From: Gracilariopsis chorda
Lineage: Eukaryota; Rhodophyta; Florideophyceae; Gracilariales; Gracilariaceae
Length of the DNA: 64,000 bases
NCBI GenBank assembly: GCA_003194525.1
Contig: NBIV01000115.1
Span: forward strand, 62,001-126,000
Reading direction: 5' to 3'
A model generated the notes under the pieces. The model was not told where the DNA came from, made no database searches, and saw only the letters and a list, made by a program, of their open reading frames with translations. The translations under genes and the position numbers were made by a program. Positions 206-59,744 of this stretch are shown here, one piece after another (position 1 is the stretch's first letter; each line of letters starts with the position of its first letter).

Positions 206-973
206 TGGTGCAATGCCCGGAAGCGGGAGTGCACCGAAAGACGTTCGGGATGTTTCCTCGTTAGAGGTGAGCCCAGTTGGGTAGATACCTCCCACGAGTG
301 GCACGAATATGTCGGGTTGTAAGTCCGAGGTCACCCGTCGCGACTGTTGCAGAGAGGGTGAGGCAAGAATCGGGTATCCGCAAGAGCGATGTATGGGGCT
401 GGTCATTATCTAGGGGGGTGAGGCTTCCGCGTTAGTGGCACGCGCGAATACCAGCCGTGAGAAGCGAGAAGCCACCCTGCAGAGGGAAAAATAAGGGAGA
501 GCTGAGTCACGAATGTCGTGACGAAGACTAACGGCCTTGCCAATAAATAAACCTTATACAAGGCGAACACCAAAACAGGTGGAATATCAATTCGAATACT
601 TGGGTCCTTAGATAGGCAAGGGGTTTAGATTTCCCATATGTGACGGTGCTTCCCTCCAAGGAGAAGTAGAGAACACGCGAAGGCGGTGAGTTCTAGAGCC
701 GATTCCCCAGGTTGGGGTCCCTTTTTCCGGGAGGTTTACTGGTGCGAAGGCAGTGCACCGGCGCACTAAGTACTAACCTTCCCACTGTAATTACCATATA
801 AATGAATAAATAGATAGCAAAATCGTATCCATTACAGTGGCACATCCGTCCAAAACGTGCAGAGTCCATTGCAATGGTGCATCCGGCTAAGCCGTGAGAC
901 AGTATTGTAGATCAGCCGAGCAATTGGAAAACTAATAAGTGCTCAAGATCCACCTCAGAGGGCGTCCATTACA
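206..973 (-). repeat. Diverged LTR of Ty3 family A
   Basis: This segment aligns along its whole length, with many substitutions and small gaps, to the LTRs at 4445-5259 and 13378-14194. It shares the start TGGTGCAATGCCC, the block around CCGAAAGACGTTCGG, and the central block with CCCCAGGTTGGGG and TAAGTACTA. The orientation matches the LTRs of the minus-strand element, so it belonged to a minus-strand copy. No equally diverged partner LTR was found, so it is a solo LTR or a remnant. The right end is approximate. Several of its small hairpins keep pairing through paired substitutions (see findings). Confidence 0.75.
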
Positions 974-3900
974 CTTTCCCCTTTTTGCCTTTTTCTTTCT
1001 GGATTGTAATTTACCGGAACATCGCTCACAAGAACCCATGCATTAGATTGACTAGCTGGTAACCCCATTTTCTGTAGCACCTCCATTGGTATATCTGGAA
1101 GCAATCTGGGTTTCACACCCAAACATCGTGTGGTATGGAGGGCCCAGTCGCTGTGCCCACCTCGCCAGAGAGAAAGGCCACGAACACCTTGAGAGGATTT
1201 CGCTGGTAAACATATTGCTCCACAAGTTGTCTCGAGACCTAGAATCGGTTTATCTACAACTGGTTTGATACTTTATGCAATTTTGTGTTGTTCAGGTCTG
1301 GGAAAAATCTTTCAAGATCTTCGTGTTGGCTCAGCTCTTTGGAAACAGCTGATTCAAGTTAATTGAAGTTCCGAACATTCTGTTGACTGCCATGCAGTAT
1401 GCCGCCACCGGCTTCAAAAATTTGGACTAGTTCTACCAATGCTAAGGGTCTACCGTGCACGGTGCACTGCGTACGCAGACATTCATTCTGGGACGTTTGA
1501 ACTACAATGAAGCTGGTCGGGATGCCCGAAGAACGCCTTCGGGTGCGTCTGCCCCACAGGCTATAACCCCAGGTGGTACCACCTCCAGTGGTCGAAACTC
1601 CGTCTGCGTCTTAGCGTAGTATGGATGAAACTGTGTTTTCTCGACTGGAGTCGCCACATCTCTAAGGTGGCTCATGTTTCTCTCCCCAAAAACGTAAACA
1701 ACCTTCATCAATAAGTCGAAGAAGCCCAAGTTTGGGATGTCTCGAGAGATATCTGACTCTTACGTCAAGACGTGGATTCTGGTTTCGAGTGTCTGGATGT
1801 CCCAGGGACCTTTGTCCAGGACTAGAAGAAGGTTGTCAATGACGTTCAGGTGGTCTTGAAACGTGTGCCCGTTCGTCTAGATACGTTGAAAGCTTCTACC
1901 GGCATGGATACAGAAGCGCCCACGAAAGCAGAAAACGAGGTCGTCTCTATTGGCCCAATTCAGTGCTTGAATAAACAAAGAGCTCGAAAACTGAAAAAAG
2001 ATGTTCAATACCATGGTTTGGGGTTCTTAAGACTCTGATTATGATCGCCGCTCATCGGAGTTCTCATCGGACTACTCAGATTCGGACAATGAAGGCAGAA
2101 TTTAGTTGTAACGGATGCTAAGGCGACTTACGCTACTCAGGGAGTGGTTTTCTCTCGCGGAAACGGTAGACGTCACCTGGGACTCAAAGAATTGAAACCT
2201 ACAAATCCCATTTACTGGAAATTGTCATCGTATCGGTATCATAGATTGGATGATTCCTCATTTGCTTGGTCTGCACGAGGTACCGGCGAGTTTAAGAATT
2301 GCATCAAACGCATGAATACTAATCTTCAATGGAGATATTTCTCAGGAAAATATCCAATTCTGGTGGTTAATTTCGGAGCCAACATGATCTGCATGAGTGA
2401 AGCCCAAGCTTATCTCACGTTACCGTATTTCCTAAGCAGTATGGCTGAGAATTAGTTTAATTCCGTTCGAGGAACCTCGAAAGCCTCGGAAGGAGAAGTA
2501 ATCTGCTGGCCGGAGGGGTCTCACTCCATTTTGAGGTCATAAGCTACGGGAAACGCCATCCACATGGTGATACTTTCGATACGCGATCGAAACGAAAGTC
2601 TGGTGAAACATAAAGGGTCTATCCAACCCGCTTGAATAAAGCGTTTCACCGATGTGGTAGTTTCTATTCTACACTAGAGCGGTGTTAGATGTTCTTTGAC
2701 GGGCTACACCCCTCATTACCTGCGCTAGTCACGCGGAAAAGTGAGAATAAACGGAAGATTTCATACTTTGAACTGGTTCAGGATGCCCAAGCTGAGGAAG
2801 GAAGTCACCATGCACGGAATCAACCGAAACAATAGTGGACGAGAGCTCTGGTATTAGAGGAGTCGTTAAAATCGATGTGTTCGCTACAGTGCAAGTCCGC
2901 GACCACAGATATGCAGAACGTCTATTACGGTGACAATAGCTCTGCCTCATTTGGGACTACGGACTTGCCGTTAACTTTGGCGCCGATTTCGGAGGAAGCA
3001 CCCACTTTCTGCGCAGTTGCAGCACGAATGCAGGCCACTCCTCGCAATTTGAGTCTAGCCGAGCCGTTCTTGGAGTAAAACGATTTGAACATTCCCATGA
3101 GGTAGGAACCGGTGGTACATTTGCAAAGAACCACTCCAGGTACCGGTTCTATGTCTTTGATACCAGCAGTAATGAACACATTTCACATGTACTTACCTGA
3201 TCGAAAAGTATGAATGAAAACATTTGATGTTGAGCGGTTGCGCTCGTTGAGGACAAGCGTGGCAACAAACGTATACCCAGAATAAAATCTAAACTACTGA
3301 ACTTCGTCGTTCTGTGCAAAATTCAATTGCATATTTTCCTTTGAACATAGAAAAAATCCTCGATCTCCTTGCGTGCGGCCGGTCGTTGGTTCCATATGAT
3401 ACTCAGTACTATTTGACCCAAAAAAGGGTTACTGCAGAAGTAAACGACAAGCACAATCGTGTTGTGAAAAAATGGTCTCAGGGACGGGGATCAAGCTACT
3501 TTTCACATTTGGGCTATCAGTAGCCTTAGTGTACAGTAGACGTATGAGTGTCCGCCGGTCTAACGACCCCACTTGGGGATACCTCTGCAAAGAGTGTTAT
3601 AGCTGCACACGTGGAAAGTGGAGCCTCTGTCTAGCGAAACGCTCCGTGGCCACAGGTCAAGTAGGTATACATGGGTACAATACCCGGGTGTGTCGGAGTT
3701 GTTAGAACCTTTACTGAATACTTTCAGTAACGGTACTTAAGAATCGGGGGCTGCCGCTCTTCTAAGAAGTAAATCCATCCAGGAACTTTGCTGTAAGTAT
3801 ACTTCTGCTGGTGCACGGCTACAACTCCAATCTCAGAGAGTGCCGTAGTCGATCCCGGTATACGTAACCCCCTTGCACCTCGAGAACTGATTTCCCGTAG

Positions 3901-4444
3901 TCTGCGGTACATTATGTTTTTTTTTTTGTTTCTGTTTACATACCCGTCTTACGGTTACCTCTACTCCGCCCTGCCTTCAGGTGGGCTCCAAATAATTCGG
4001 GATTATTTGTCGTTATCGCCAACCAGTGTTCTGAAGTGCAGCTCGCAATTGTCCGCGTATTTATCGTCCCTGAATATTGCCATTGGCTCAAAATACCCAA
4101 ATACTCCGATTTTAGGATATTTGCCTCCTCTTTCTGTAAAGCGGGACGTGATCGCCCGGATTTACGCCCTGCGCATGTCCGTCATCTCGGAGCGTTCTAC
4201 TGCTGAGTTGCGCCACCCAAGGGACTAAGGTTGAAAAACTTGAGTTTCCTTTCAGCGGGTGGTCTTAATCCTTTCAACTCCAAACAGTATGGCACTACAA
4301 ATCGTACTGCAGAGTTGCAAAACTGCAAATCAGACACCTATAATGTGTAGAGAAAAAAAACCATTTACAATCAAAGCAATAATGAGTAAAATGCTGGCAT
4401 TTAGACATGCTTGAAGAAAAAGAACAAAGCTAGGATGACTAATG
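974..4444. other. Decayed Ty3 remnants, no intact gene
   Basis: There is no long open frame apart from the gag fragment at 2144-2800. A serine/aspartate-rich stretch just upstream on + (about 2035-2100) resembles the serine-rich linker upstream of the capsid in family A gag. Short open frames at 3314-3523 (+), 3472-3705 (+), 3914-4228 (+) and 3724-3912 (-) match nothing I recognise. A poly-T run sits near 3915. The region reads as several overlapping retroelement fragments. Confidence 0.5.
2144..2800 (+). pseudogene. Ty3 gag (capsid) fragment
   Basis: The plus-strand frame opens at 2144 and contains the motif LKELKPTNP followed by SYRYHRLDDSS and EAQAYLTLPYFL. These match LRELKPTNP, SYRYYRLEDSS and EGQAYLALPYFL in the minus-strand family A gag at 12423-11665. 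The frame stops at 2455, but similarity continues in broken frames to about 2800, with LNKAFHRCG and a FELVQDA segment. It is a relative of family A in opposite orientation, disrupted by stops and frameshifts, and not functional. Confidence 0.75.
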
Positions 4445-5259
4445 TGGTGCAATGCCCCAAAAGGGGAAAAACACCGAAAGGCGTTCGGGATCTTCCTCTC
4501 ACGAGGTGAACCCAGTTGGGTAGAGCCCTCCCAGAGGTGTCACGGCGAAGCCGGTTTGTAAGACCAGGGACACCTGTCGCGACTCGCGCAGGGAGGTGAA
4601 GGCGAAGAATCGGTATCCGCGTGAGCGGGGTGTGATCCTCAGTAGAGGTATGTTTCCACGTAAGTGGGGGTGTGTGAGCGGATGCGCACACGAGGGCCGC
4701 GGATAGCGGGAGGTGCTACGCTATAAAGGGGAAAACGGAAGGGCGAAGAGGAGGAAGAGAGGACGATGTGAGTCGCGAGAGCGACGAACAGATACGGCGA
4801 TGCCGGTAACAATATCCCTATACAGGGCGAAACACCAATATGATTGGAACAATTGTACTCCCAAGGATGGGCTTCTTTAGATGTGCAAGGGGGTTAGATG
4901 TCCCGTGGTTTACGGCGTTTCCCTCCAAGGAGGAGTAGAGTACGCGCGCAAGCGGCAACAACTAGAGCCAATTCCCCAGGTTGGGGTCCCTTGGGGAAGG
5001 TTTACTGGTGCGACGGCAGTGCCCGTCGCACTAAGTACTAGCTTCCCAGAAATGGGTGTGAAAATAATAAATAGTATTAACTAAAATACTCCACATTTCG
5101 TGGCAACATCCACTACTGTGGCCAACCGCCAATTGACCCAAAACCGTGTCCCACGTGTCCATATCCACCATAGTGGGGCGTAGTTCATATACACACTACA
5201 CAACCGATAATATCGGGAAAGCGTTCAAGTACCAAGAATCCCTCCCTGAGGGCGTTGCA
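4445..5259 (-). repeat. 3' LTR of family A element
   Basis: An 815 bp terminal repeat, read here on the + strand from TGGTGCAATG to GGGCGTTGCA. It is about 95 percent identical by eye to 13378-14194. It has a pyrimidine-poor A/T-rich patch near 5060-5085 (AATAATAAATAGTATTAAC), a longer hairpin around GTGCGACGGC...GTCGCAC near 5009-5032, and a regular series of short stems from 4455 onward. Confidence 0.92.
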
Positions 5260-5263
5260 CTAC

Positions 5264-5277
5264 ATATCCCCCCCTAA
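5264..5277 (-). promoter_or_regulatory. Polypurine tract of family A element
   Basis: On the minus strand the run CTTAGGGGGGGAT ends a few bases before the 3' LTR start (TGCAACGCCC at 5259). A purine run at this place primes plus-strand DNA synthesis in LTR retrotransposons. Its position supports the LTR boundary. Confidence 0.65.
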
Positions 5278-5519
5278 GACGGGAAAACGACCGCGGACGC
5301 GGAGGGTTCCCAGACGAAAATGGGTGATAAAAGCGCGTACGCCGTCTCCGGTTCTTCTTTCCTGGCATAGCCGGCTATTGTAGTATAGTGTTGTGGGGAG
5401 GTAGCTGCTCCCTTGAATAAACTTTCCCGTTTTGAACGGTGATTCTCGTTTGAGTTCCCCGTCGTCGACGGACCTTGCCTTGTTATCCTTTCCTATCGCC
5501 CTCCGTTCGCGCGGCAACG

Positions 5520-5927
5520 TTACCCAACTTGGGCATTTACCAGCGTGGCTGGAGCTGCAGTTCCCGTTTGACGGTGGTATCGCACGACCTGCGACCGTGG
5601 GAAGTGTTCGATTGACTCCCACGTATCCCCACTGGGGTCATACCCGTACCAGCGGACGCGGTATTGTAGAATACCATCCTGGTCCCAGGTTTGTCTGACA
5701 AGTCGGTCTACTACGAGCTCTCGTTCGTAGACCTGCCGGCCGTGCCGGGTGGTGGTTGTACTCCCTTGCGGGGGCTGCCCACTGTGCGGTATAATGTCCC
5801 TTAGCAGGGTGTTCGGCGATAACTCCGGCGTTGCCGTGCGCTGTGATAGCGGCTGCTGCTCATGCGGGAAGATATCCCTCAAGAGGGTGTGTGGTGCCAC
5901 GGTTTTCACCGGCAAGTCATTCCCCAT
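5520..5927 (-). CDS. Chromodomain module, 3' end of pol
   Basis: A 135-codon frame whose second half is a chromodomain: YERELVVDRLV, then QYRVRWYGYDP, then DTWESIEHF, the aromatic and acidic positions typical of chromodomains that bind methylated histone tails. In chromoviruses this domain sits at the C-terminus of integrase and targets heterochromatin. Here it is in the -1 frame relative to the long pol frame, which ends at 5906 and overlaps it by about 20 bases. It could be reached by frameshifting, or the frame may have been lost by an indel. About 260 bases of noncoding tail and the PPT follow before the 3' LTR. Confidence 0.8.
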   Translation of the reverse strand: MGNDLPVKTVAPHTLLRDIFPHEQQPLSQRTATPELSPNTLLRDIIPHSGQPPQGSTTTTRHGRQVYERELVVDRLVRQTWDQDGILQYRVRWYGYDPSGDTWESIEHFPRSQVVRYHRQTGTAAPATLVNAQVG

Positions 5928-8900
5928 TGGGGCAGGATCATTTCCGCTTTCGCGGTATTGCGGGCAAACCGCCAGTCGGCGGGGACTTGGGCTCCGCCTT
6001 CGCGGTTGAGCTCACGAACCGCGAGTTTGCGGGAAGATGACCGCTCCTGCGGAATCGGCATTTCCACAATCCCTTGGGGGGTCCCGTGCGACACGGTGAT
6101 TGGGTGGCAAACCGCCTCCCTGCCAGGCGCACGAGCGCTCTGCACCATACGTTCCGGCGACGCCGTGGTGTCCCCGGTTACTGACCGGTTGCCTGGGGCT
6201 AACTCCGGTACACCGGTATTTTGGTCAAAATTCCCCTTTGGGGGGTGCCGGGCAGGTGCCGATGAAACCCTTTTCAGGGGCTTGGCCGCTAAGTGCGGTG
6301 CACCGTCTCCATGAGGAGGAGCAGCGTCCGGTACGACCGGTTTCGAGCGTGCGATGGCGCGCGTTTTTCTTGAGTTCCTCGGTTCTTTGCCGCAGCGTTG
6401 CGGGGGTTGGCGCAAATTATTCCCCGTAGCGGGGGCTTCGATTCCGTCAACGACGGGAGGCGTTTCTGGGGCTTGCGAGCCAGGGCTTAAAGCTTCGACT
6501 GCGGCTTGGCTGCCTTTTTCCCCAAGAGGGGTGTGGTTATTTCCCTGTGAGGCCGGCGTATCTGGGCGCCCCTTCTCCGCAAGGCGCGGGTCTGATCGAC
6601 CTGATTGAACCGCTTCCGCGGGGACTTCCGCCAACGGCGGCTTCGAGGCATCGGGCGATTGCCTTTCCGCTGCTGCGGTCTTGGAGTGAGGCTTCTCGTT
6701 TTCCCGTGACAAACGGTGTATTTGCCGCTTTTGCGGGGCCTGTGCGTCTGGTTCCTGTTGCACAGAACTGCCCGGGAACGAGGGATTAGTGTCGCGTGAC
6801 ATACTCCGTGCTCCACGGTCATTGTTCCGTATGTTACGGTGTGTTTCCCGTTGCGACGGCGATATCGTTCCTCGAAAACGAGTGTTCTCCTCCCCCTCCT
6901 TAGACGGAGCGGCGGGATAAGGGATAATATTCCCCGCCTGGCGGGTATAGATGCGCCCCAGTGGGGCGGACGTGGTAAGGGCGGGCGCTGAGGGGCCCGA
7001 ATTACCCGGCTGAGCCGGTGAGTCCGACAGAGTCGGTAGGTCTGAGAGTCCCCGGCTGGGGTTTGGTAGTACCGTAGGTCTAGTACTCCCGGATGGTTCC
7101 GGTGTTCCAGAGTCCGTAGAAACGGGGTTGCCTGGATCCAGGACTACCTCTGACGAGGGAGGAGGGGCAAGGACAACACGATCACGGGAAATCCGTTCGT
7201 GCGTGTCCCCCACCTCTACCACGACAGTGTCGGTGCTAACAGAGATGACCTTGAAGGGTCCATCCGCCACAGGCGAGAGTTTGTGACACTTCTCCCGTTC
7301 CGGGTTGTAGTACTCCTTCCTGATGAAGACGTAGTTATTTGCCCGAATCGGGGGGGTCTTTCCTCGCAAGCGAGCGTCAAAATCCCGCTTGTAAGCGGCT
7401 TGGGCCCGTGCCATAGACTTCCGCGCAGCGGGGACCAGCTTGGAAAGCCATTGCTTCCATTGCTGCCGGTAGATACCCACAGATGGGAAATTGTCCAAGG
7501 TAGCTTGGGGTTCCAGCGCCACAGGCGGGGGTGTTCTCGATAGAACCAACTCCAATGGCGAAACTCCGGTAGTCCGGTGTACCTGCGTATTGTACGCGTA
7601 GGTTACCGCATCAGCGTAGAGATCCCAATTCGTTGGGTGGTCAGTTACGTAGGAACGTAACGCCGCGAGTAACGTCTGGTTAAACCGTTCAACTTGCCCA
7701 TTACACTGGGGGTGGTAGGTAGTCGTGAACAAGTTCTTGACATCCAGGATGCGACAAACATCCTGGAAGAACTTGCTCGCGAACTGCTTCCCGTTGTCAG
7801 AGAGCACCTCCACAGGGGGACCGTAGACAAAAATCCAGTGCGTCACCAGAGCCTGGGCCACCGTGAGAGCGGTTATCCTCCGAAGAGGGACAGTCCGTAC
7901 CAGCTTAGAAAAGCGGTCGGTGATGACAAGTAGAAACTTTTTTCCACGTTTTGTGGTGAGTAGTGGTCCGAGAAGATCAATTGCGATAAACTCGAGTGGC
8001 GCCCTTGCGGGGAATAGTTTCATCTTCTTCGCATTTTTGCGGAGTTTGACGCGATTCTTCGCGCATTCGCTACAAAACCGCACAGTTGCGTAGCAATCCA
8101 CCGCCATTGCGGGCCAATAGAAATCCCTTCGCAGGGTTAGGTAGAGTTTCCTCCCACCTGGGTGACCTCCAAAGGGGGCGTAGTGTGACAGATGTAACAC
8201 CCGCGATTGCAGGGAATGAGGTACCACAATCTGTGGGCGGGCTTCGACCTTCCTTACGAGGTAGCCTTTGTCGTTTACCCCGAAAGGGAGATCTTCACCA
8301 CCGTTGATACGGGCACGAATCCTCGTCCAGAATGGGTCGCCGAATTGTTCTCGGATCATTTCTTCCGGTGATACCGGTACAAAGTTTCCCGGTAACGGGT
8401 TCTCAGATTCATCTCGCGATGCGAGTAGTTCGTCAAAGTCAGCGTCCTCGTCCCAGTTTTCTGGCCCAGCCTCGACGGCACATTCCGGATTATCCGCTTC
8501 TATGGCCATGAAACATGGGACTTCATCATCCTCCGTTGGGAGTGCTTCCCCACTTGTGGGTAACCGCGACAAGGCGTCGGCTTGGGTGTTCTGCGCGCCC
8601 TTTTTATAAATGACTTGAAAGTCATATTCCGCGAGGCGGAGTATCCAGCGCATGAGGCGTCCCGACGGGTCGGAGATATTCATCAACCACCTCAATGAGG
8701 AATGATCCGTGTACACGGTGAAGTGAATTCCCATAAGGTAGGGGCGCAGAGTGGTCATCGCCCATACGAAGGCGAGGCACTCTTTCTCCGATACGGAGTA
8801 GTTCCGCTCATGAACATTGAGCGAGCGTGACCAATAACCAATTGGATGTCGTTCCCCCTCGGGGGTGGTTTGAAAAAGAGCACACCCGACTTGGTAGTCG

Positions 8901-9760
8901 CTCGAGTCCGTATCTACGGAGTATGGCAACCCAAGTTTTGGGAGATGTAGGATTGGTGCTGATGTGATAGCCTCCTTCAAGGAGTTAAAAGCTTCCGATT
9001 GCTCGGGCGTAAATGTTCCCAGTTTTGGGGGGTTCCCCTTTCGCAACAACGCGTTTAGGGGCTCCGCAGTATCCGAAAAGTTCGGGATAAACCGTCGATA
9101 GACGTTGACTAGCCCCAAAAAGGAGCGCAGTTCCGTTTGAGTACGGGGTTCTTTCGCCTCAACGAGGGATTTGACTCGAGCTTTCTCGATCGCTAACCGT
9201 CCAGGACGGATAATGTGACCCAGATACTTCACAGTATCTGTGAAAAACTCGCATTTCCTCAACTTGAGGGTAATTCCCGCATCGCGGAGTACGCTCAGCA
9301 CGTCTCGGACGTGAGTGAGATGGTCGTCCCACGAGTTGGAGAAGATGATAATATCATCAAGGTAGACCAGACAACTCCGCCACTTAAAGCGGTTAAGTAG
9401 AATATCTACTGCACGCTGAAAGGTGGCGGGGGCGTTGGTTAACCCAAACGGCATCCGCTTGAAGTGGTACGTCCCTGCATGGCAGGTGAATGCGGTTTTG
9501 TCGCCATCCTCCTGTCTGACAGGTGCTTGCCAATATCCCCAATTGGCATCAAGGGCCGTGAACACGGTGGCGTGTCCAAGTGAGTCAATGCACTCGTCCA
9601 TACGAGGGATGGGGTACGTGTCCCTAACAGTCACGGCATTGAGCCGGCGGTAGTCGACACAGAACCTCCAGGTTCCGTCGGCCTTTAAAGCCAGTACAAC
9701 TGGGGATGCCCAGGGTGATTGAGCGGGCTCAATCACACCTGCGCGGAGCATCTTGTCCAC
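5906..9760 (-). CDS. Ty3 pol: reverse transcriptase, RNase H, integrase
   Basis: A long open frame of 1284 codons. The visible start VDKMLRAGVI is inside the RT fingers, so the true frame begins upstream. RT shows FCVDYRRLNA near residues 33-42 and the catalytic YLDD at 133-136. RNase H follows, with TDSSDYQVGCAL near 284 and YTDHSSLRWLM near 350. Integrase has the zinc-binding H526, H533, C563, C566 and the DDE triad at about D595, D655 and E691 (HPQCNGQVERFN). After about residue 850 the protein becomes a proline/serine/arginine-rich tail of roughly 400 residues with no recognised domain; in DNA this tail is dense with short hairpins. All catalytic residues appear present. Confidence 0.93.
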   Translation of the reverse strand: MDKMLRAGVIEPAQSPWASPVVLALKADGTWRFCVDYRRLNAVTVRDTYPIPRMDECIDSLGHATVFTALDANWGYWQAPVRQEDGDKTAFTCHAGTYHFKRMPFGLTNAPATFQRAVDILLNRFKWRSCLVYLDDIIIFSNSWDDHLTHVRDVLSVLRDAGITLKLRKCEFFTDTVKYLGHIIRPGRLAIEKARVKSLVEAKEPRTQTELRSFLGLVNVYRRFIPNFSDTAEPLNALLRKGNPPKLGTFTPEQSEAFNSLKEAITSAPILHLPKLGLPYSVDTDSSDYQVGCALFQTTPEGERHPIGYWSRSLNVHERNYSVSEKECLAFVWAMTTLRPYLMGIHFTVYTDHSSLRWLMNISDPSGRLMRWILRLAEYDFQVIYKKGAQNTQADALSRLPTSGEALPTEDDEVPCFMAIEADNPECAVEAGPENWDEDADFDELLASRDESENPLPGNFVPVSPEEMIREQFGDPFWTRIRARINGGEDLPFGVNDKGYLVRKVEARPQIVVPHSLQSRVLHLSHYAPFGGHPGGRKLYLTLRRDFYWPAMAVDCYATVRFCSECAKNRVKLRKNAKKMKLFPARAPLEFIAIDLLGPLLTTKRGKKFLLVITDRFSKLVRTVPLRRITALTVAQALVTHWIFVYGPPVEVLSDNGKQFASKFFQDVCRILDVKNLFTTTYHPQCNGQVERFNQTLLAALRSYVTDHPTNWDLYADAVTYAYNTQVHRTTGVSPLELVLSRTPPPVALEPQATLDNFPSVGIYRQQWKQWLSKLVPAARKSMARAQAAYKRDFDARLRGKTPPIRANNYVFIRKEYYNPEREKCHKLSPVADGPFKVISVSTDTVVVEVGDTHERISRDRVVLAPPPSSEVVLDPGNPVSTDSGTPEPSGSTRPTVLPNPSRGLSDLPTLSDSPAQPGNSGPSAPALTTSAPLGRIYTRQAGNIIPYPAAPSKEGEENTRFRGTISPSQRETHRNIRNNDRGARSMSRDTNPSFPGSSVQQEPDAQAPQKRQIHRLSRENEKPHSKTAAAERQSPDASKPPLAEVPAEAVQSGRSDPRLAEKGRPDTPASQGNNHTPLGEKGSQAAVEALSPGSQAPETPPVVDGIEAPATGNNLRQPPQRCGKEPRNSRKTRAIARSKPVVPDAAPPHGDGAPHLAAKPLKRVSSAPARHPPKGNFDQNTGVPELAPGNRSVTGDTTASPERMVQSARAPGREAVCHPITVSHGTPQGIVEMPIPQERSSSRKLAVRELNREGGAQVPADWRFARNTAKAEMILPQWGMTCR

Positions 9761-11079
9761 TTGGGACTGCTCCTCTTCCCGAGCTTTCGGAACTGCCCTG
9801 TAAGGGGTTGTGCAACCGGTCGCGCACCGGGGATTAAATCGATCCGGTGTTCCGTTGCATTAATCTCGCCAAGCGAGCCATCCCACATTGTGGTCAATTC
9901 CCGTAACATAGTATGGAGTTTTTCGCGGTGCGACTCTGGCACGTGGCTGAAGTCCAGCGCTTCAAGTGCTTTTTCCGGATCAATCCGGTCGTTGCTCGAT
10001 GGAGCATTGTCCTGTGGAACAGGTGTGGTTCGCAATTCCGAGTTACTCGGTATGTTCGACGCTGAAGTAGCGGTTTCCTCCCCCTCCTTAGACTTGACGT
10101 CTTCGGACGGCGGGGCGAACTCCTCAGAAGAGGTGGTAACTCCGAGTACATCGGCGGCTGTCATCTTTGTTAGCAGCATTCCCATAGGATGGGGGGTTAC
10201 ACTCCCAATTACTTGGTGTTTCACCAGATACTGGGGGTGTTTGCCAAGGTTGGCAACCAATATCCGGAAAGGAACATCCGGGGAAATGGAGACAATTCCA
10301 TTAGCCAGCGCCAGCTGGGATTTCTCGTACAACGAGGCGAGGGGTTGTATAACCCGAAGACCGTGTTGACGGGAATTTACCTGCACCCAGACTTGGGACT
10401 CAGCCGGTATAGAAACCGAGGCAGCGACGCGGAGCTTGGTGGACTCGCGGGACGCGGGCGGTGGTTCCTGCGCAGCAGGGAGCGGAACTTGTTTCCGAGA
10501 GGACCGCTTTAGCGGGCGGCGAACAATCGGAACCGACAATCCGTCGTCAAGTTCTACACGCCTGAGGCGGGGCCTGATTGCGTCGACAAATCTGTCGCAG
10601 TAATCACATCCCAGTATCACTGGTGCTGCCAATGAACGGCAAACGATGAAGTCCAACTTCACCACAGAGGTACCAAGTCTCACGACGAGGTCCACTGTGC
10701 CCACCGTTTGTAACGGATTGTTGTTCGCATCCGAAATGTCGGGGGCCGTGTCAGAGCGGATATGCGACCGCACAAGCGGGGGTAACAATGATTCCACAAC
10801 AAAGTTGGGGCCTGCACCTGTATCCAGGACGGTGAGAAACCTCACCATAAACTGGGGGTCAAGGCCAAGGTCGGCATAGACCTTATAATTGCGCTTGGCC
10901 AAGACCAAGACTCTACCGGGAATCCGGGGATTTTTACTCCGTAATAACGGGCGACGCAACACACCGAGGTGCGCAGAGTCCGCGTCAGCGGTGTCTTGCC
11001 TCGAGAGGACTTTCACCGGGGAGCGAGGCGAGGACGCCTCGGGCGCCAACAGCCTCGTTCTTGAGGACGCCTCTCCCAA
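9733..11079 (-). CDS. Retropepsin-like aspartic protease and RT N-terminus
   Basis: A 448-codon frame with the active-site motif FLTVLDTGAGPNFV (DTG at about 86-88) and the later ILGCDYCDRFVD, equivalent to the conserved ILG(C/M)D motif of retroviral-type proteases. The C-terminal part (LRELTTMWDGSLGEINATEHRIDL, then GARPVAQP) is the leader into RT. At about 9803-9808 the RT frame continues one base back (-1), within a CCCC run, and becomes the pol frame. Either one base was lost here or ribosomes shift. It is in the same frame as the zinc-knuckle and capsid frames upstream. Confidence 0.85.
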   Translation of the reverse strand: MGEASSRTRLLAPEASSPRSPVKVLSRQDTADADSAHLGVLRRPLLRSKNPRIPGRVLVLAKRNYKVYADLGLDPQFMVRFLTVLDTGAGPNFVVESLLPPLVRSHIRSDTAPDISDANNNPLQTVGTVDLVVRLGTSVVKLDFIVCRSLAAPVILGCDYCDRFVDAIRPRLRRVELDDGLSVPIVRRPLKRSSRKQVPLPAAQEPPPASRESTKLRVAASVSIPAESQVWVQVNSRQHGLRVIQPLASLYEKSQLALANGIVSISPDVPFRILVANLGKHPQYLVKHQVIGSVTPHPMGMLLTKMTAADVLGVTTSSEEFAPPSEDVKSKEGEETATSASNIPSNSELRTTPVPQDNAPSSNDRIDPEKALEALDFSHVPESHREKLHTMLRELTTMWDGSLGEINATEHRIDLIPGARPVAQPLTGQFRKLGKRSSPKWTRCSAQV

Positions 11080-11277
11080 AGGGGAGACTCCCTCAGTTAG
11101 TTTTCCGCCTTCGGCGGTGGGTTGGTTTCCTCGACAACGAGTGCTTCATCCCGTTGACGGGGGTTTCTATCCGCATAAGCGGGGTTGCAACGGATGGTTG
11201 CGTGATCTCCCGAATCGGGGTGTATGAAAGCTTGCCGCGCACGCGGGGTCTGTGGTAGGGCATGGGAAAAGTCCGTT

Positions 11278-11604
11278 TTAGCACGGAGGTAGGAAGCCGT
11301 CGGGACGGAACGTTTTCTCCTCTGGAGTGAGGGCCTCATAATTTGCCACCACCTTGGCCATATCCTTCAGTGAACAAATACACTGAGGGGAGGTATGGCC
11401 ATGGGCATAGCACAGGTGGCAAATGAGAGCCAGCACCGCGACACGCGGATTATTATTCCGAGTATCGGAGAAGCGAACCACAAGGGCGGGTGTCAGTCCA
11501 TCCAGGCCGTTGATAACGGGATTGACCGTTTGAAAACGGGAGTCGTTGGGGTTGAACCCGACTGTTACCACCGTATAGAACGGGATCTTCTGTTCCCGTA
11601 TCAT
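11278..11604 (-). CDS. Gag nucleocapsid segment with zinc knuckle
   Basis: This frame contains CHLCYAHGHTSPQC, a retroviral-type CX2CX4HX4C zinc knuckle, followed by a KDMAKVVANYEALTPEE helix. It is the nucleocapsid part of gag, which binds element RNA during packaging. It is in frame with the capsid segment (11665-12423) and the protease, but stop codons separate them. Between about 11838 and 11453 the coding sense runs in the -1 frame, so two compensating indels have hit gag. Confidence 0.75.
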   Translation of the reverse strand: MIREQKIPFYTVVTVGFNPNDSRFQTVNPVINGLDGLTPALVVRFSDTRNNNPRVAVLALICHLCYAHGHTSPQCICSLKDMAKVVANYEALTPEEKTFRPDGFLPPC

Positions 11605-11664
11605 GGGTCATCTCCGTCGTTGATGGCAAATCACTGGTGGGTATCGACACACCATCCCCCTGCG

Positions 11665-12423
11665 CTAAATGCACGGTATCAAATCCCTGTCCAGGGTTCC
11701 CATCCGCGGTGAGCGGGAGAGAGGAAGCTTCGCTTTCCAGCAACAACGCCTTGGCGGATTTAGACCGATTGTTCGGAGTTCTTGCACGAAGTGCATCCCC
11801 TTCCGCTCGGGCGTGTTGGACCAGCTCGAGGTAAGTGATCCTCGCTTGTCCTCCCGATAACGGGTAACTAAACTCCGGATTGCCGGGTCAAGACCATCAA
11901 TGAACATGGTACTGCGCTCCCCAGCGGGGTATACGTTACCACATCTGTGGAAAGCCTTGTTAAGGCGCACCGAGTAATCGGTCTCGGTCTCTCCAGCACG
12001 CTGGCGTGTATCTCGCAAAGCGAGGATAGCCTGCTGAATAGCGGTGTTGGTGGCGTAGGAGCGCAGAAGATACTGCACAGCCTCCGGCCAGAAAGTAACT
12101 CCTCCCTCGGAGGCGCGAGAAGATCCTCTGACAGAGGTGTATTGGTCCTCCGCCACTCCCCGTAAGAAATAAGGTAAAGCCAAATAGGCTTGTCCCTCAT
12201 TCATACCGAGGATATCGGCCTCCGCTACAAAGCGGGATAGGAAATCCAGTACTATGACTGGGTCCTCTCCAGTAAAATACAGGTTGCGGAGCGAGAGCTG
12301 CATTCGCTTAATGCATTCTCGCACCTTTCCCGTACCACGGGGCGTACGTCCAAGTGACGAGTCTTCGAGCCGGTAGTACCGGTATGATAAAAGCGTCCGG
12401 TAATCCGGGTTTGTCGGTTTCAA
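11665..12423 (-). pseudogene. Gag capsid segment, frameshifted
   Basis: Gag capsid with LRELKPTNPDYRTLLSYRYYRLEDSS at the start; coding sense extends a little upstream of 12423 (GRKHPGLREL), matching the plus-strand fragment at 2144. It continues through EGQAYLALPYFLRGVAEDQY and ETDYSVRLNKAFHRCGNVYPAGER. Near 11838 the true frame moves to -1 (TYLELVQHARAEGDALRAR), matching FELVQDAQAEEGS in the plus-strand relative. The last ~55 residues of the open frame are therefore out of phase. No domain name can be given beyond LTR-retrotransposon gag. Confidence 0.75.
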
Positions 12424-12730
12424 TTCCCGAAGACCGGGGTGTTTTCTTCCCTTCTGGCGGTTCGGACCACACCTTCAGTGGCCGATGACCGCTTCGAGCG
12501 GGAGGAGTAGCCTCGCTTCTCGTCCTCCGAGTCGGAGTCCGAGGAGCTCGAGCTAGCCGAATGGTTTCGGGATGAGTCCGACGATGTCGAAGAATCGGAG
12601 TCCGAATATTTTCGGTGGTGTTTCCGTCGATGACGGCGTTTCTTCTTCCCAGCAAGCTGGTCGTTGTACGATGCCTCGTTTACCGGATCACCGGGGATGG
12701 TTTGTCCATGAGGACGAACTGCTCCAGCGT

Positions 12731-13270
12731 CTACAGGCGGGCACCAATCCGATCAAATCGGGCTTCAACTCCTTCGATGAAGGCGGCGGGTTGTCCCAAA
12801 CTCTCCAACACGGAGTTGACGTCAGACCGTAAAATACGGAGTTCCTCGGCGACCTCCTTTACGGTGGTTGCCGAGACCACCTCTTGGAGGGATTTTAGTT
12901 CCCCTACAAGGGTGTCATGGGCGGTCCACAGAGCGCGGACCTGGGATTCCAGGGAAGTCCCCTGGAGGGTGTTATCGCCCGTTCCACGGGGGCTTGAAGC
13001 CGCGACAGCGGTAGCAGGGCGGGGTGCCTGGGGCACTGCGGCAACAGCCGGAGTCGATGCTGCATTCCCTTGCGGGGGTGATAACGAGGGCAAAAGGAGG
13101 TTCCGGGGTTCCCGGTCGGGGGTATCATTCCGCGATGAAGCGGCGCCAGTACGGCTGGAACTTTTCCGTATAGGGATAGGGGGTACGAACCGAACTTCGG
13201 AAGTGTCCGCGTTGTCGCGGGAGCGACTACGCGTAACCACTGGCTCCGTATCGGAGGCATTTCTCGACAT
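12731..13270 (-). CDS. Gag N-terminal segment
   Basis: A 179-codon frame starting 108 bases after the 5' LTR, the expected place for the gag start. Residues 1-100 are arginine/serine/proline/alanine-rich and likely disordered. Residues 105-175 (LESQVRALWTAHDTLVGELKSLQEVV and onward) have a heptad-like pattern consistent with a coiled coil. A stop separates it from the serine-rich linker and capsid segment, which lie in other frames. Confidence 0.65.
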   Translation of the reverse strand: MSRNASDTEPVVTRSRSRDNADTSEVRFVPPIPIRKSSSRTGAASSRNDTPDREPRNLLLPSLSPPQGNAASTPAVAAVPQAPRPATAVAASSPRGTGDNTLQGTSLESQVRALWTAHDTLVGELKSLQEVVSATTVKEVAEELRILRSDVNSVLESLGQPAAFIEGVEARFDRIGARL

Positions 13271-13350
13271 GAGAAAATACCGTTACGACGGGAAACGATC
13301 ACGGAACTTCCGGTAAATAAAAACAAACCTCGTAAGAGGGAAAACAAAAA

Positions 13351-13372
13351 TCGATTCTAGGTCGGGAGACCA
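13351..13372 (-). promoter_or_regulatory. Primer binding site of family A element
   Basis: On the + strand this 22 bp stretch reads as the 3' end of a tRNA: T-loop residues, a 5-nt T-stem strand (CTAGG), a 7-nt acceptor strand (TCGGGAG), discriminator A, then CCA. On the minus strand it starts TGGTCTCCCGACC, five bases after the LTR end, as expected for a minus-strand primer site. The tRNA species cannot be named from this stretch. The neighbouring LTR at 15758-16224 is preceded by nearly the same site. Confidence 0.8.
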
Positions 13373-13377
13373 CTTTA

Positions 13378-14194
13378 TGGTGCAATGCCCCAAAGGGGAA
13401 AAACACCGAAAGACGTTCGGGATCTTCCTCTCACGAGGTGAACCCAGTTGGGTAGAGCCCTCCCAGAGGTGTCACGGCGAAGTCGGTTTGTAAGACCAGG
13501 AACACCTGTTGCGACTCGCGCAGGGAGGTGAAGGCGAAGAATCGGTATCCGCATGAGCGGGGTGTGATCCTCAGTAGAGGTATGTTTCCACGTAAGTGGG
13601 GGTGTGTGAGCGGATGCGCACACGAGGGCCGCGGATAGCGGGAGGTGCTACCCTAAAAAGGGAAAAAGGAAGGGCGAAGAGGAGAAAAAGAGGGCGAAGT
13701 GAGTCGCGAGAGCGACGGGGACGAACGGCGATGCCGGTAACAATATCCCTATACAGGGCGAAACACCAATGCAATTGGAACAATTATACTCCCAGTGATG
13801 GGTCCCTTTAGATGTGCAAGGGGGTTAGATGTCCCGTGGTTTACGGCGTTTCCCTCCAAGGAGGAGTAGAGCACGCGCGCAAGCGGTAACAACTAGAGCC
13901 AATTCCCCAGGTTGGGTTCCCTTGTTGGGGATGGTTTACTGGTGCGACGGCAGTGCGCCGTCGCACTAAGTACTAGCTTCCCAGAAATGGGTGTGAAAAT
14001 AATAAATAATATTAACTAAAATACTCCACATTTCGTGGCAACATCCACTACTGTGGCCAACCGCCAATTGACCCAAAACCGTGTCCCACGTGTCCATATC
14101 CACCATAGTGGGGCGTAGTTCATATACACACTACACAACCGATAATATCGGGAAAGCGTTCAAGTACCAAGAATCCCTCCCTGAGGGCGTTGCA
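13378..14194 (-). repeat. 5' LTR of family A element
   Basis: An 817 bp terminal repeat matching 4445-5259. For the minus-strand element this is the upstream LTR that would carry the promoter. The PBS lies immediately downstream on the minus strand (13372-13351). The sequence outside the LTR (CTTCAAG after 14194) does not repeat the sequence before 4445, so no target-site duplication can be shown. Confidence 0.92.
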
Positions 14195-15757
14195 CTTCAA
14201 GAAAACACATTTCTACACCTATCGGCTTTTCTCCAAAAGTTGTTGGCGGGTCCCTCTCGGTCATGTTAGAGCTTAGCCTGTAAAAAATCACGTCCTGATG
14301 TGCGTCCATGATGACGTCATCCGTCGCATAGGTTTCCAGTTGGTAGTGCAGAACCTCAGGGTGGGACCTAAGGAGCTCCCGGTTCGTTACGTCGACGGGG
14401 TCGTCAGTCCCAGAGATCTTCAAACCACATGGTCGTGCGCGTGCCCATGGACGAAAAACTGAAAGAGACACCCAGCGCCACCCTCATGTACGCCGTTCCA
14501 GTTGCAGGCCGTACGGAACAGACTAAGAAACCTAAGGATACAAATGCGTTCGGATCCCGAAAAGTTTTAATTAAGGTTAGCTGGATCCCTTTGGCTGGCC
14601 TCGTAGCCTTTTTGGCCACAGAGGAGGAGTACCATTTGAAACGATCATCCAAGTGGTACTTGCGGTAATCCAATGCTCTCTTAAATAGTTCATCGGTTGT
14701 TACAAAAGGTTGGAGGCGTCGAACAGCCTCCTCGTCCGTCTCGGAGCCACTGGAACTCGATGAACCCGAATCGGAATCGCTACCGCTGGAGTCCCTACGG
14801 CTTTTTATCTGCTCTTTGACTTCTTCTTTCGGCTCCTTCTCTTCTTCCTTCGGTCTGATATTCGCGCTACCATTGGCAGCTCTTCATCTTCTGTCGCAAA
14901 CCCAATGGCGGCATGGGGATTCTGGACTACTCGGTACCTCACGGGTTGCACATCCATAAGGCCTTCTTGTCGAGCGATGTCCGTAATGTCCCCTGGGCAT
15001 GAGGCCGATTGGTCTACCTGTGGTTGAGTCCGACGAGGGGCTGACAATACAGCTACTCTCAGGAGTTCGGAACAGGGTTTTCATACGGATACTAATGGAT
15101 TAATTTGAGTTCCGCCCAAGGTGGTCAGCGGGCCTACTCGGGGTGTCACCTCACGTTGGATAACAATAGCAAAGAAGTCGACGGAAGCGTCGGACTCCAG
15201 TATCTTAGGGAGAACTCGTTCTGCCAACTTGTTGGCGTGCTTGGCAAGGGCGATGGAGACTCCGAGATCCACAAGGGCTTCGAGTCGGGCATCGAGCATG
15301 TTGCGAACCTTTGGCCATAGAAGATCTGCAATTACAACTGTAGTATCAGTTCCAATGGTTTCCTGCGGGCCAATCTGTGGTGTGTTAAGCTACGGTACTC
15401 GTCCAGTCGCCCATGGAGTCGTTTAGCCGATGAGACGTCGCGAGAAATCCGTTCATGATTTTCACTTGTGAGAGGAGGATAAACTGTGGCTGCGAGTGGG
15501 TGCTCCATCGAGCACTGGCGCTTTCGCCGGAGGTTCCGGCGGCAAAAGCTGGCGGCGGAAAACTTCCACTGGTTTGACCAACTTATGTGCGGGATTCTTC
15601 TTGGGTGGGTTGATTGTCATCCATAATGGCGGTGCTTTCAGTTCCAGTTCGTCAGTTGTCCAGTTCCAATGGTAGAATTTCTTCGGTTCGTCCTTCAAAG
15701 GGTGCCCTAGATCACTTCCGTGCGGAAATCTATGGTTCTAGGTCGGGAGACGAGAAA
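14195..15757 (-). pseudogene. Truncated Ty3 gag related to family A
   Basis: Minus-strand fragments follow the 5' LTR at 15758-16224. The frame 14673-14404 begins DYRKYHLDDRFKWYSSSVAKKATRPAKG, which parallels SYRYYRLEDSSLG.TPRGTG of family A gag. A lysine/arginine-rich stretch lies at 15047-14805 and another open stretch at 14471-14160. The element ends abruptly at the right LTR of the family A element, so the rest was displaced or deleted. Dense hairpins are not apparent here. Confidence 0.6.
15733..15753 (-). promoter_or_regulatory. Primer binding site next to the 467 bp LTR
   Basis: It matches the family A primer site at 13351-13372 over GGTTCTAGGTCGGGAGA, ending CGA instead of CCA, four bases from the LTR edge. 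The shared tRNA primer ties the two elements to one lineage. Confidence 0.65.
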
Positions 15758-19978: not shown

Positions 19979-20848
19979 ATGTGGCGCCGCGCCGCTATGG
20001 CCCAAGTGCCGCTCACTCAGCCCTCCTCCATCGTCCACTCCGCCGACGACTCCAAGCTGCACCCCTGGCACCCGCCCCACTCCACCCCGGACAGACACAA
20101 GTCCCAGCTCAGCTACGCCAGCACCAACGATGAGGGCCACACCACCAGCACTCATCAAGAGCTCCCGGATAACTCTATCGCCGTCAATGGCGCCCTCTCC
20201 GAAGCTCCCGTACACCTGTCGCACGATGCCGACTACTCTCCCTTTCATCCCTCCCATTCCCACGAAGAGCAACCGTACAATCACAACGAAGCCTCCGCAG
20301 AGCACAACCCCAGCCTGTCAAAACAGCAATATCGTCAACAACTGAAGCCCGTTCCGCAACGCCATTCAGAAATGAACAATCAAACCCTTCTCCCGAAAAA
20401 GCGCAGGTCAAGTCGCAGAAAACCTTATCGATGCGGCTATTGCCATTCACTCGGGCACAATCAAAAAACGTGTCCCGACCGACCTCCCCATCTCGGCCGA
20501 GCGACAAACTCCAAATCATTAACATCTGCGCAAATCCAACCCATAAAGGTTTCCGATGAAATCGCCACATTATTTCTCGAGTCTGCTGCTGCCACCTGCA
20601 CAGACGACGCCCAAACCGCCCAACACATAACTTCCGACACCGTGCTGGAGCTTGTTAACAAACGAATCACCGATGCAAGTTACGCCGTTGCAAGTGCTAC
20701 TACAGATACTAATTATCATGATGCTATCACTCAACTTCAGGCCGCTGTGCTTCTTTATGAGAAAGTCGCATTTCTTGTGCGACGAGGCATATTCCCGGCT
20801 CAAATCATCAGTCGAGACACTGAAGAACCGTCTCAAGTTCAATTCTAA
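19979..20848 (+). CDS. Zinc-knuckle (CCHC) protein, hypothetical
   Basis: A GC-rich frame of about 289 residues starting at MWRRAAMAQV; the open frame extends up to 19832, and 19997 is another possible start. Residues 1-130 are rich in His, Ser, Pro and Asn and look disordered. A basic stretch KKRRSSRRKPYR leads directly into a single CX2CX4HX4C knuckle, CGYCHSLGHNQKTC (20432-20473), which usually binds single-stranded nucleic acid or zinc. The C-terminal ~110 residues (SDEIATLFLESAAAT to VLLYEKVAFLVRRGIF) appear helical. The composition and codon use are unlike the flanking retroelements, so it is taken as a host gene. A second exon after 20848 cannot be excluded. No family is recognised. 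Confidence 0.6.
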   Translation: MWRRAAMAQVPLTQPSSIVHSADDSKLHPWHPPHSTPDRHKSQLSYASTNDEGHTTSTHQELPDNSIAVNGALSEAPVHLSHDADYSPFHPSHSHEEQPYNHNEASAEHNPSLSKQQYRQQLKPVPQRHSEMNNQTLLPKKRRSSRRKPYRCGYCHSLGHNQKTCPDRPPHLGRATNSKSLTSAQIQPIKVSDEIATLFLESAAATCTDDAQTAQHITSDTVLELVNKRITDASYAVASATTDTNYHDAITQLQAAVLLYEKVAFLVRRGIFPAQIISRDTEEPSQVQF

Positions 20849-21936
20849 CCGAACCAACCCTGTCTATTACCACACCCTTTTAGTTCAACGAGCGCCATAT
20901 GATGCCCCTTGCTGCCGTCTTGCATTGCTTCTATCGATGATTGCTCAAAGCAAGCGTTTCTTTTCTCGACCATGTTGTATGTTGTATCAATATCCGCCAT
21001 GGGCCGCGTTTTCTCACAATGCATTCATTTGCAGAATGCCTGGAATCGCATGTGAATAAATATCTTCACAAATCGACAAGAATCACTACCCTTGATATTG
21101 GCTCTCAAAACATATCCAGGTAAGCTGGTACATTCTCCAGTAATGCCATCGACCTAGAGGCGCACCGTCAGTGCACATAATGTGGGAATGCATGTTTTGT
21201 TTATCATCTACTGAGCCTTCCGACAGAAGCGTTGCATGTTTTGCAGTGGAGTGGTTCACTCCTGACTACTTACTCAGTGAGGCTCAACGGGCTAGCCTAC
21301 TCTTCAGTCGAAAACGTATCCAGCGCGTAGAATGCACGCAAGACAGATCATGAGCGCTTTTCACGCACGCACCCGCGTTTTCTTGCCGGTTGAATCACAA
21401 TCAAACGCGCTTGTCCCGCACTTGTCCCGCGCTTGTCCTTTCATCTTCCATTTTAGTTCTCTCCCATCGGCAGAATACACATTCTCGTTTGAGCCTAAAC
21501 AACAAATAGATGACGTGGGGGGTAAAATGTCCTTGAATGGCCTCTAAAGCTCGTTTTAGGATGAGCTAGGAGACAACAGGGCATGGTATGAAGCTGAAGG
21601 CTGCTTCCCTAACCGGTAAAATTAAAACACTTGAATCAGTTTTGTGATATTCCACCAGCCTCGTTTATTTCTTTTCGCTAGCAGACACGACCATGTGATC
21701 GTGTCGCATGTCCCCCTTCAAGTCAGTAAAATTTGTTTCGTTCGTTCGTAACCCTGAGAGAGAGTAAAACGTTAGCCTTTCCATTACATACGCTTCCTCC
21801 CGTAGACGTAAAACAGGTGTTGACATTTACCGTCGCTTCCCTCGCTCAACGCAGTACTGCTTCACTATCATCTGCTTAGCGCGCTTTCGGACAAAGAATG
21901 AACCGTTTTCCAGTTCCCCCATATATGCGTGGGCCA
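20849..21936. other. Intergenic, no gene recognised
   Basis: Only short open stretches are seen. A/T-rich and CT-rich sequence just upstream of 21937, including a run of pyrimidines near 21786-21845, is a plausible promoter or 5' UTR for the rhomboid gene. No repeat boundary was identified. Confidence 0.4.
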
Positions 21937-59400: not shown

Positions 59401-59436
59401 TTCGTCGCGCGTTTCTTCGTCCGCTGGCTTACACAA
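56419..59436 (-). CDS. TBC-domain Rab GTPase-activating protein
   Basis: 1005 residues, single exon. The TBC domain covers about 675-900 and has both catalytic fingers: IQADVTRTMP with the arginine finger R731 (IXXDXXR), and SVGYCQGMSSIAA with the glutamine finger Q769. ALSHNFPHRHLLRIWDLMFLGG is the conserved third motif. Such proteins stimulate GTP hydrolysis by Rab proteins and control vesicle traffic. The N-terminal 75-310 is alanine/leucine-rich, with repeated helices (LLLSFLAAP, AALRVVAKLLVCHP, LRACAALAAIAAW, LRLATIDALVAMSH) resembling ARM repeats. 320-640 is serine-rich and disordered. The C-terminus has a cysteine cluster CCLPCF that might be lipidated. A later Met (residue 42, 59313) is an alternative start. 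Transcribed divergently from MoaA. Confidence 0.9.
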   Translation of the reverse strand: MCKPADEETRDEEKRSSSEEDVRARAVPRAWRCSLPRRVRPMATAAALAPSAPLRTSTALAEPPSSTVAAEWPAAVSAALRDVRVSSSNPPLAALQRIRRAAPQRLAPLLPLQLHRPLLRQLAKDRSPPPRDRSAAVLLALHALCSLPDFRSQLVDNAALPLLLSFLAAPPGPDRPTSDPASAKPPALVADSAANAALRVVAKLLVCHPPACANAIPAGALPLLAASGAPSQPLDLRLRACAALAAIAAWSGPRNAVQIVETPGVVAAMCAVLEDTHPSIPPDLRLATIDALVAMSHRGHARRVLQRFGCDEKITIAARHATLSGDYTAAARSTVAAGHLTGRSIDEYGFFVQDAAQRLSSATTDDLPTNGTQQHPPTASGLSNIAHKMMHEPYTSVDDLTGLEHIVDHHYSLHQSAPVSKSSPHKATAMSSRRSSAMSTEHLSTASPSVAVAAATAVATASPPKSSPELRVLSVASSPQSVAANGNEFEQASATADHANIATATTCALSESAVSVPTGAIPNEIFSPTLALEMHHDSATTSHSSDEVSSAALAEHNSSSSPRRSANFADPDFDKLRLSTQQNASASQQYPADPQQTDQSSGSSDAISPLLMFSSATKEAAERDGANGRLQKTNSQITRESKQERVWRQVMDENPHMLKRERGRSSRVVAYRELALVPVPPAMRRRLWPILLDTKSLRDARPGLYVKLCKAGEHDLLPDDIEHTIQADVTRTMPSHALFWSGGAQVGVQSLRSILRAYARYVPSVGYCQGMSSIAAVFLMNAVDEEEAFLMFAQFMSRFQYKKVFAPGFPLMLQWISELRPLVAHYMPQLHARLERENVSLELYADKWLITALSHNFPHRHLLRIWDLMFLGGSPKIILKACLAVLKECESRLMEMDFETMMPFLQRGFAEADAGVLDAKDPEPFVAMMREFRFMPDIPKSELEASQAAVAAATAQAVAARPATTNTPVATGSTQSSPQKSKQAPQQRKSALCCLPCFSGSATID

Positions 59437-59453
59437 GCTTACTGCGTTACGTT

Positions 59454-59518
59454 ACTTTCGCTTCGCCGCGTGACACGGGCACGCAGTGCGTGCCCGTGTC
59501 ACGCGGCGAAGCGAAAGT
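59454..59518. repeat. Perfect 65 bp palindrome in divergent promoter
   Basis: Two 32 bp arms (59454-59485 and 59487-59518) are exact reverse complements around a single G at 59486. The arm begins ACTTTCGCTTCGCC and ends CGGGCACGCA. It lies 17 bp upstream of the TBC start codon and 226 bp upstream of the MoaA start. It can extrude a cruciform in DNA or a very stable hairpin in the TBC 5' UTR. Confidence 0.95.
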
Positions 59519-59647
59519 GCGGCACGCGCGGAACGAAACCGTTGCAGTTCTCGCGCGCTCATCTCCGCCATGACGCCTCCGCCCAATTGCCGCCGATCGC
59601 GCCCTGACGTCGCCCTCGCCGCGCACCAACACGAGCACAGCCACGTG

Positions 59648-59740: not shown

Positions 59741-59744
59741 TTCC

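Follow-up and report, generated by a model that had tools for sequence, protein, structure and literature searches.

The window analyzed here is a 64,000-nucleotide stretch of the red alga Gracilariopsis chorda (contig NBIV01000115.1, positions 62,001 to 126,000), and at 4445–14199 it contains a Ty3-type long terminal repeat (LTR) retrotransposon, family A, whose sense direction is the minus strand. Two LTRs with TG...CA ends bracket the element, and the pol frame carries, by Pfam and in this order, reverse transcriptase (RVT_1, 26–184), RNase H (278–379), and integrase (513–684) domains. The gag side is interrupted in this copy and spread over different frames, and neither the gag-side nor the protease frame has a Pfam match at E values up to 1. 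The CX2CX4HX4C pattern on the gag side is that of a nucleocapsid-type knuckle, and the probable primer binding site has the TGG start of such sites. Scans of the window for tRNAs and Rfam families gave no matches, and no target-site duplication was seen in the flanks of the element that were inspected. The element, its parts in sense order, two typical hairpins, and a related relic are as follows.

4445..14199, minus strand: Ty3 element of family A with a hairpin array over its full length (hairpin counts and LTR comparison)
13378..14199, minus strand: 5′ LTR in the sense direction, hairpin-rich, 95–96% identical to the other LTR
13360..13372, minus strand: TGGTCTCCCGACC, a probable primer binding site five bases internal to the LTR (read from the sequence)
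11668..12474, minus strand: open stretch on the gag side, 269 amino acids, no Pfam match
11380..11421, minus strand: CCHC zinc knuckle, CX2CX4HX4C (pattern search)
9736..11145, minus strand: frame with the protease motif LDTGA at about 10830 (pattern search)
5906..9760, minus strand: pol frame with reverse transcriptase, RNase H, and integrase (Pfam)
4445..5264, minus strand: 3′ LTR in the sense direction, hairpin-rich (repeat and hairpin scans)
4617..4628, no strand: typical LTR mini-hairpin CCGC-GTGA-GCGG, 4 bp with a 4-nt loop (stem check)
9073..9085, no strand: typical coding mini-hairpin CCGAA-AAG-TTCGG, 5 bp with a 3-nt loop (stem check)
206..784, minus strand: diverged relic of a related LTR, ~68–70% identity to the LTR of family A; some stems show compensatory changes

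Short perfect hairpins are in excess along the whole of family A. When perfect stems of at least 4 bp with loops of 3–8 nt are counted in 2-kb bins of the window and compared with dinucleotide shuffles, the five bins spanning 4001–14000 reach ratios of 2.17, 2.13, 2.48, 2.64, and 2.67 (z 7.5–11.0), while ratios in the remaining 27 bins lie between 0.70 and 1.59, with the maximum at 2001–4000 (z 4.1). The excess persists against synonymous, junction-preserving shuffles, in which protein, codon usage, and codon junctions are kept: hairpins number 154 in pol (71.2 expected, z 11.4), 62 in the protease frame (25.4 expected, z 8.6), and 31 in the gag frame (13.7 expected, z 6.1), versus ratios of 0.76–1.62 (z −1.6 to 2.8) in nine control frames that include two copia frames. 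Under a strict geometry, pol still has 101 hairpins against 36.5 in codon shuffles (z 10.9), and 20/20 bins along the element are enriched (z 2.4–7.5). The element holds 288 non-overlapping hairpins of the family geometry, or 29.5 per kb, compared with 9.6 per kb at 16–64 kb of the window. Inverted 4-mers occur 154, 169, 147, and 84 times per 10 kb at loops of 3, 4, 5, and 6 nt, against a level of ~42 at distance. At those offsets, the direct, mirror, and complement 4-mers do not exceed 84 per 10 kb. RNA folding of 200-nt pieces shows the two strands of the element to be 12.2% and 12.6% stabler than shuffles, with an excess of −0.3 to 1.6% in three control stretches.

These counts confirm the observation of the first-pass annotation and support part of its interpretation, namely that hairpins tile LTRs and coding sequence alike and that codon choice has shaped coding DNA to fold. 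Hairpin density lies above that of codon-preserving shuffles and is not matched by the copia frames, and the trait is not clearly present in those frames or in a Ty3 remnant near 16–17 kb, as had also been proposed. All 20 of the stems listed there are present, those at 9299–9313 (6 bp) and 9221–9240 (8 bp) just as described; one starts at 4510 rather than 4511, and those at 9197–9209 and 9257–9269 have 5 bp rather than 6. The annotation missed how narrow the size limits are, as well as the CC...GG base of the stems and the sister families that have the trait.

Outside the element, strict-geometry 1-kb bins with z of 3.2–3.5 start at 1001, 14001, 20001, and 37001, that at 14001 taking in the LTR end, and a weak strict-geometry excess extends over 1001–4000, 20001–21000, and 37001–38000 (z 2.1–3.5). 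The sequence at 20 and 37 kb of the window has no match to family A or to the related families C and D described below.

The excess in family A is concentrated in perfect stems of 4–5 bp with loops of 3–5 nt, so that the hairpins mostly measure 11–14 nt in total. By stem and loop length, counts against expectation are 95 versus 23.9 (4 bp, 4 nt), 68 versus 7.3 (5, 3), 76 versus 29.9 (4, 3), 52 versus 21.8 (4, 5), 26 versus 5.5 (5, 4), and 28 versus 7.5 (5, 2). Neighboring sizes fall off sharply: 3-bp stems with loops of 3–5 nt show no excess (302 versus 297), 4-bp stems with loops of 6–9 nt are near expectation (32, 22, 30, and 22 versus 21.5–23.4), and stems of 6 bp are scarce, slightly above expectation. 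Stems with a mismatch likewise show next to no excess, with perfect 5-bp stems at about four times expectation (139 versus ~31) and stems with one mismatch close to it (278 versus ~254). Many stems of this family share a CC...GG base, 71 of 116 exact 5-bp stems starting with CC and 1 with GG, and pairing directly beyond that base is below chance (0.11–0.17 versus 0.25 for spans of 12–14). In pol, the CC...GG hairpins occur in all three codon phases (26, 25, and 23). Flanks in family A are strand-asymmetric, with A just 3′ of the stem in 96/198 cases and T just 5′ of it in 30/198.

Centers of neighboring hairpins in family A are preferentially 20.5–21 nt apart (1/500 random placements as strong), close to the 16–22 nt that had been read by eye, and the hairpins of families C and D together prefer ~23.5 nt (4/500). 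A long-range lattice was considered and rejected, the order not being significant beyond nearest neighbors; a separate scan of CC...GG hairpins gave 59/1000.

The hairpin trait is common to one lineage of Ty3 families, its details differing by family. Among 30 other Ty3 loci of the genome, which fall into 10 nucleotide clusters, 26 have z of 1.9 or less under the strict geometry. The strongest, L038 (family C), has a 3.75-fold excess (z 14.8, strict geometry), and its protein is 60% identical to that of family A over 488 residues. In pieces of 1.25–1.46 kb, the hairpin excess is 2.94-fold in family A, 2.66-fold in L038, 2.49-fold in D1, and 2.74-fold in D2 (D1 and D2 being relatives at 74% and 72%), with 1.81-fold in L073, a relative at 86%. 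The genome has copies of families C and D at 40 places, of which L038 and three others were used here. C, D1, and D2 share 60–63% nucleotide identity with family A, and hairpin positions mostly differ between A and these sister families. Families C and D favor 4-bp stems with 4–5 nt loops, and their 3-nt loops are at expectation (16 versus 17.7). Two further loci, L035 (z 2.9) and L039 (z 4.3), were set aside as independent enriched loci, as each adjoins a family A LTR; L041, which clusters with L039, still has z 3.3. L039 and L041 belong to a more distant Ty3 family (L041 has ~38% protein identity to A) with a mild excess and several stems of 6–8 bp, and they perhaps represent another style of the trait.

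Base pairing of the hairpins looks to be under selection. Using a real copy as the frame, we compared the changes among 12 pol copies and 31 LTRs with 400 simulations. Changes common to at least two copies destroyed 21 hairpins in pol against 35.7 expected (6/400 as low) and 10 in the LTRs against 22.9 expected (2/400). Changes private to one copy showed some avoidance in pol (132 destroyed versus 155.6 expected, 12/400), with 90 versus 85.5 in the LTRs. Private changes in pol created hairpins at the random rate (52 versus 47.9, 120/400 simulations as high), whereas those in the LTRs (L043–L072 and the window LTR) created 38 versus 25.9 expected (10/400), an excess that selection on propagating copies does not explain. 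A cruder column-wise test also found fewer shared variants in stem columns (pol 1.01% versus 2.16%; LTR 4.95% versus 9.16%), and 0/4 LTR control sets reached P < 0.05. Between families, with pairs at loops of 9–32 nt as controls and L073 excluded because it looked decayed, most hairpins are not kept, yet 131/772 hairpin comparisons are fully paired versus 52/1308 controls, and 24/665 versus 13/1269 are paired despite a change; these comparisons overlap in hairpins and sequences and are not independent. Double changes number 459 versus 378 expected, with 631 versus 654 in controls. Against the LTR relic at 206–784, changed hairpins are still paired in 8/63 comparisons versus 2/145 controls, for example GTCGC...GCGAC becoming GTCAC...GTGAC, where the spacer of the relic is longer, and CCCT...AGGG becoming CCTT...AAGG. 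Pairing is retained in propagating lineages, with positions turning over between families.

Together, these patterns are best accommodated by a selected, near-uniform array of mini-hairpins that may act as repeated sites for the Gag nucleocapsid on genomic RNA, for packaging, a reading that we put at roughly 40%. Complementarity combined with free sequence points to base pairing in single strands, most likely those of the genomic RNA, where the hairpins would form. The fixed size, 4-bp lower limit, intolerance of mismatches, and preferred spacing point to a reader of hairpin shape. A density that stays constant as positions drift suggests many equivalent sites. With its CCHC knuckle, the Gag of the element would be the natural reader; it would recognize the hairpins by shape more than by sequence, at about one hairpin per Gag, and its binding would condense and package the RNA. 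Such an array would require that suitably sized hairpins keep a constant density rather than fixed positions. Work on yeast Ty3 capsids gives ~20 bases of genomic RNA per Gag, near the hairpin spacing of family A (PMC6525542). As a more tentative extension, near-regular hairpins of one size along the genomic RNA, about one per Gag, might make the nucleic acid a ruler for particle assembly, in which case size, pairing, and spacing alone would be conserved, with turnover of sequence and position. Were the hairpins Gag sites, packaging would be encoded along the full length of an LTR element despite its codons, and the sister families would offer a natural experiment in the drift of such a code.

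Several observations sit less comfortably with packaging by Gag. The folding excess is equal on the two strands. Near-stems show no excess of G.T over A.C, either in family A (83 to 143, with 329 to 410 in control loops) or in C and D (59 to 58, with 193 to 200 in control loops), indicating that wobble pairing in a sense RNA is not exploited. No common loop motif stood out in loop counts, the CC...GG base of family A is missing from C and D, and flanks in C and D lack strand asymmetry (61 versus 67 of 188). Spacing order computed without nearest neighbors is not significant in A (104/500) or in C and D (52/500), and the second half of family A taken alone gives a best period of 24 rather than 21 nt (47/500). 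In the column-wise test, 2/5 pol control loop sets also had fewer shared variants in stems at P < 0.05, and between families the share of two-side changes that still pair is only slightly higher in hairpins (40% of 459) than in controls (35% of 631).

Some of these points favor hairpins acting in DNA, either within single-stranded cDNA while reverse transcription proceeds or as short palindromes once the DNA is integrated, with integrase, nucleocapsid, or a host protein as the binder. Strict Watson–Crick pairing without G.T, a signal equal on both strands, and the unbiased flanks of C and D all fit this, as does the family A spacing, ~21 nt being two turns of B-DNA. However, stems of arbitrary sequence could not serve as double-stranded recognition sites, which makes single strands necessary; 4-bp stems make weak cruciforms, the 23.5 nt of C and D is not a whole number of turns, and the flanks of family A are strand-asymmetric, and we consider this explanation unlikely. 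Somewhat less doubtful is a genome-scale ordered RNA structure, in which local stems would protect the RNA against host sensing, targeting by small RNAs, or nucleases with no dedicated binding protein, long stems being avoided since Dicer-like enzymes would cut them. The scarcity of stems above 5 bp agrees with such a shield, and so do a folding excess within the range of genomes of this kind and pairing positions that turn over at steady density, as theirs do (PMC7642675). A shield would not need the sharp 4-bp lower limit, the near-zero one-mismatch excess, a single total length, or the CC...GG base, and it would be expected to use wobble pairs, of which no excess is seen. If the hairpins do form a shield, pervasive structure reaches from RNA viruses to a retrotransposon.

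A replication-associated mutation process, such as template switching by the element's reverse transcriptase, could make or repair perfect stems and leave the hairpins functionless, in line with the first-pass suggestion of palindrome-forming mutation. Template switching is reported to be able both to create and to mend perfect stems (PMC8794818), compensatory pairs alone do not exclude it, and the private changes of the LTRs create hairpins above the random rate. In pol the suggestion is not supported, since private gains there match the random rate and shared changes destroy fewer hairpins than expected. The sharp limits at 4–5 bp would also be unexpected, and the 26 other Ty3 loci of the genome that lack the trait would make the process specific to the enzyme of one lineage, all of which renders this account quite improbable. 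Chance, base composition, or codon usage might be suspected, given that the GC content of the element (0.54–0.56) is above that of most of the window. The excess over both dinucleotide and synonymous, junction-preserving shuffles rules this out, and a stretch with 64% GC at 58001–60000 has a ratio of only 0.75, leaving it with practically no probability.

To our knowledge, no known system keeps a unit of nearly fixed size along an entire LTR element, and a search of the open-licence literature, outside which most subscription papers lie, found no title or opening of an abstract that describes such a hairpin array in an LTR element. Partial likenesses exist. RNA viruses with pervasive structure have folding excesses of 7.5–10.7% (hepatitis C virus) and ~15% (SARS-CoV-2), and they resemble family A in a folding excess over the whole sequence, coding regions included, in many stem-loops, and in poorly conserved pairing positions (PMC7642675). 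Family A differs in being a reverse-transcribing, integrated LTR element rather than a positive-strand RNA virus genome, and in its near-fixed stem and loop size, lack of mismatch tolerance, preferred spacing, equality of strands, and, in this one family, the CC...GG base. Dispersed packaging signals of viruses also comprise many similar stem-loops over a genome, for which binding by particle protein has been proposed (PMC6281560, PMC7612645). The array of family A is far denser (~29 per kb) and spans LTRs and coding sequence. Viral signals share a recognition motif, usually in the loop; in the hairpins here no common loop motif stood out, and a CC...GG stem base is present in family A but not in C or D. 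Maize Sirevirus LTRs (Bousios 2016, as cited in PMC10760457) offer another LTR retrotransposon with many short palindromes and predicted structure, although there a repeated motif, CACCGGACNNNGTCCGGTG, lies in the LTR cis region, whereas the stems of family A vary and cover the whole element. Like family A, hairpins made by template switching show short, perfect inverted repeats together with compensatory double changes (PMC8794818); family A departs from them in the random-rate private gains of pol and in shared changes that spare hairpins. Yeast Ty3 belongs to the same superfamily as family A, and the part of its capsid study at hand mentions no hairpin array (PMC6525542). Perfect stems of 4–5 bp with loops of 3–5 nt are a geometry that can be used as a scan on LTR elements of any genome.

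Family A is repeated across the genome searched (91.3 Mb in 1081 contigs). Near-full matches to pol number at least 36 (7073 candidates, of which 36 were scored), and matches to the LTR at least 41 (1859 candidates, 40 of them scored). For pol, 120 relatives were listed; by identity, the top named one comes from Agarophyton chilense (71% across 73% of the query), and a pseudoscorpion protein has a better E-value at 37% identity. Outside this genome, two scans of viral_contigs found no relatives. Elsewhere in the window, the gene at 62018–63751 encodes a product 86% identical over 84% of its length to a Gracilaria domingensis protein, and this match and that of pol point to a red alga of the Gracilaria type as the probable host.

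The 12 pol-region copies (L001–L012) are near uniform in pol itself and fall into two subtypes downstream of it, from alignment column ~5500 onward (L001, L002, L003, L006, and L007 versus the rest), a pattern that suggests that subfamilies have exchanged sequence. On several contigs, matches to Ty3 RNase H recur on one strand at constant distances, ~5.68 kb in C573, C883, and C998 and ~6.35 kb in C225, C509, and C755, as if whole elements lay in tandem, whether as real arrays or as assembly effects. On contig C257, three family A LTRs (L057, L066, and L069, at 120760, 121792, and 122824) lie on the same strand 1032 bases apart, forming an LTR tandem with a short unit between the LTRs.

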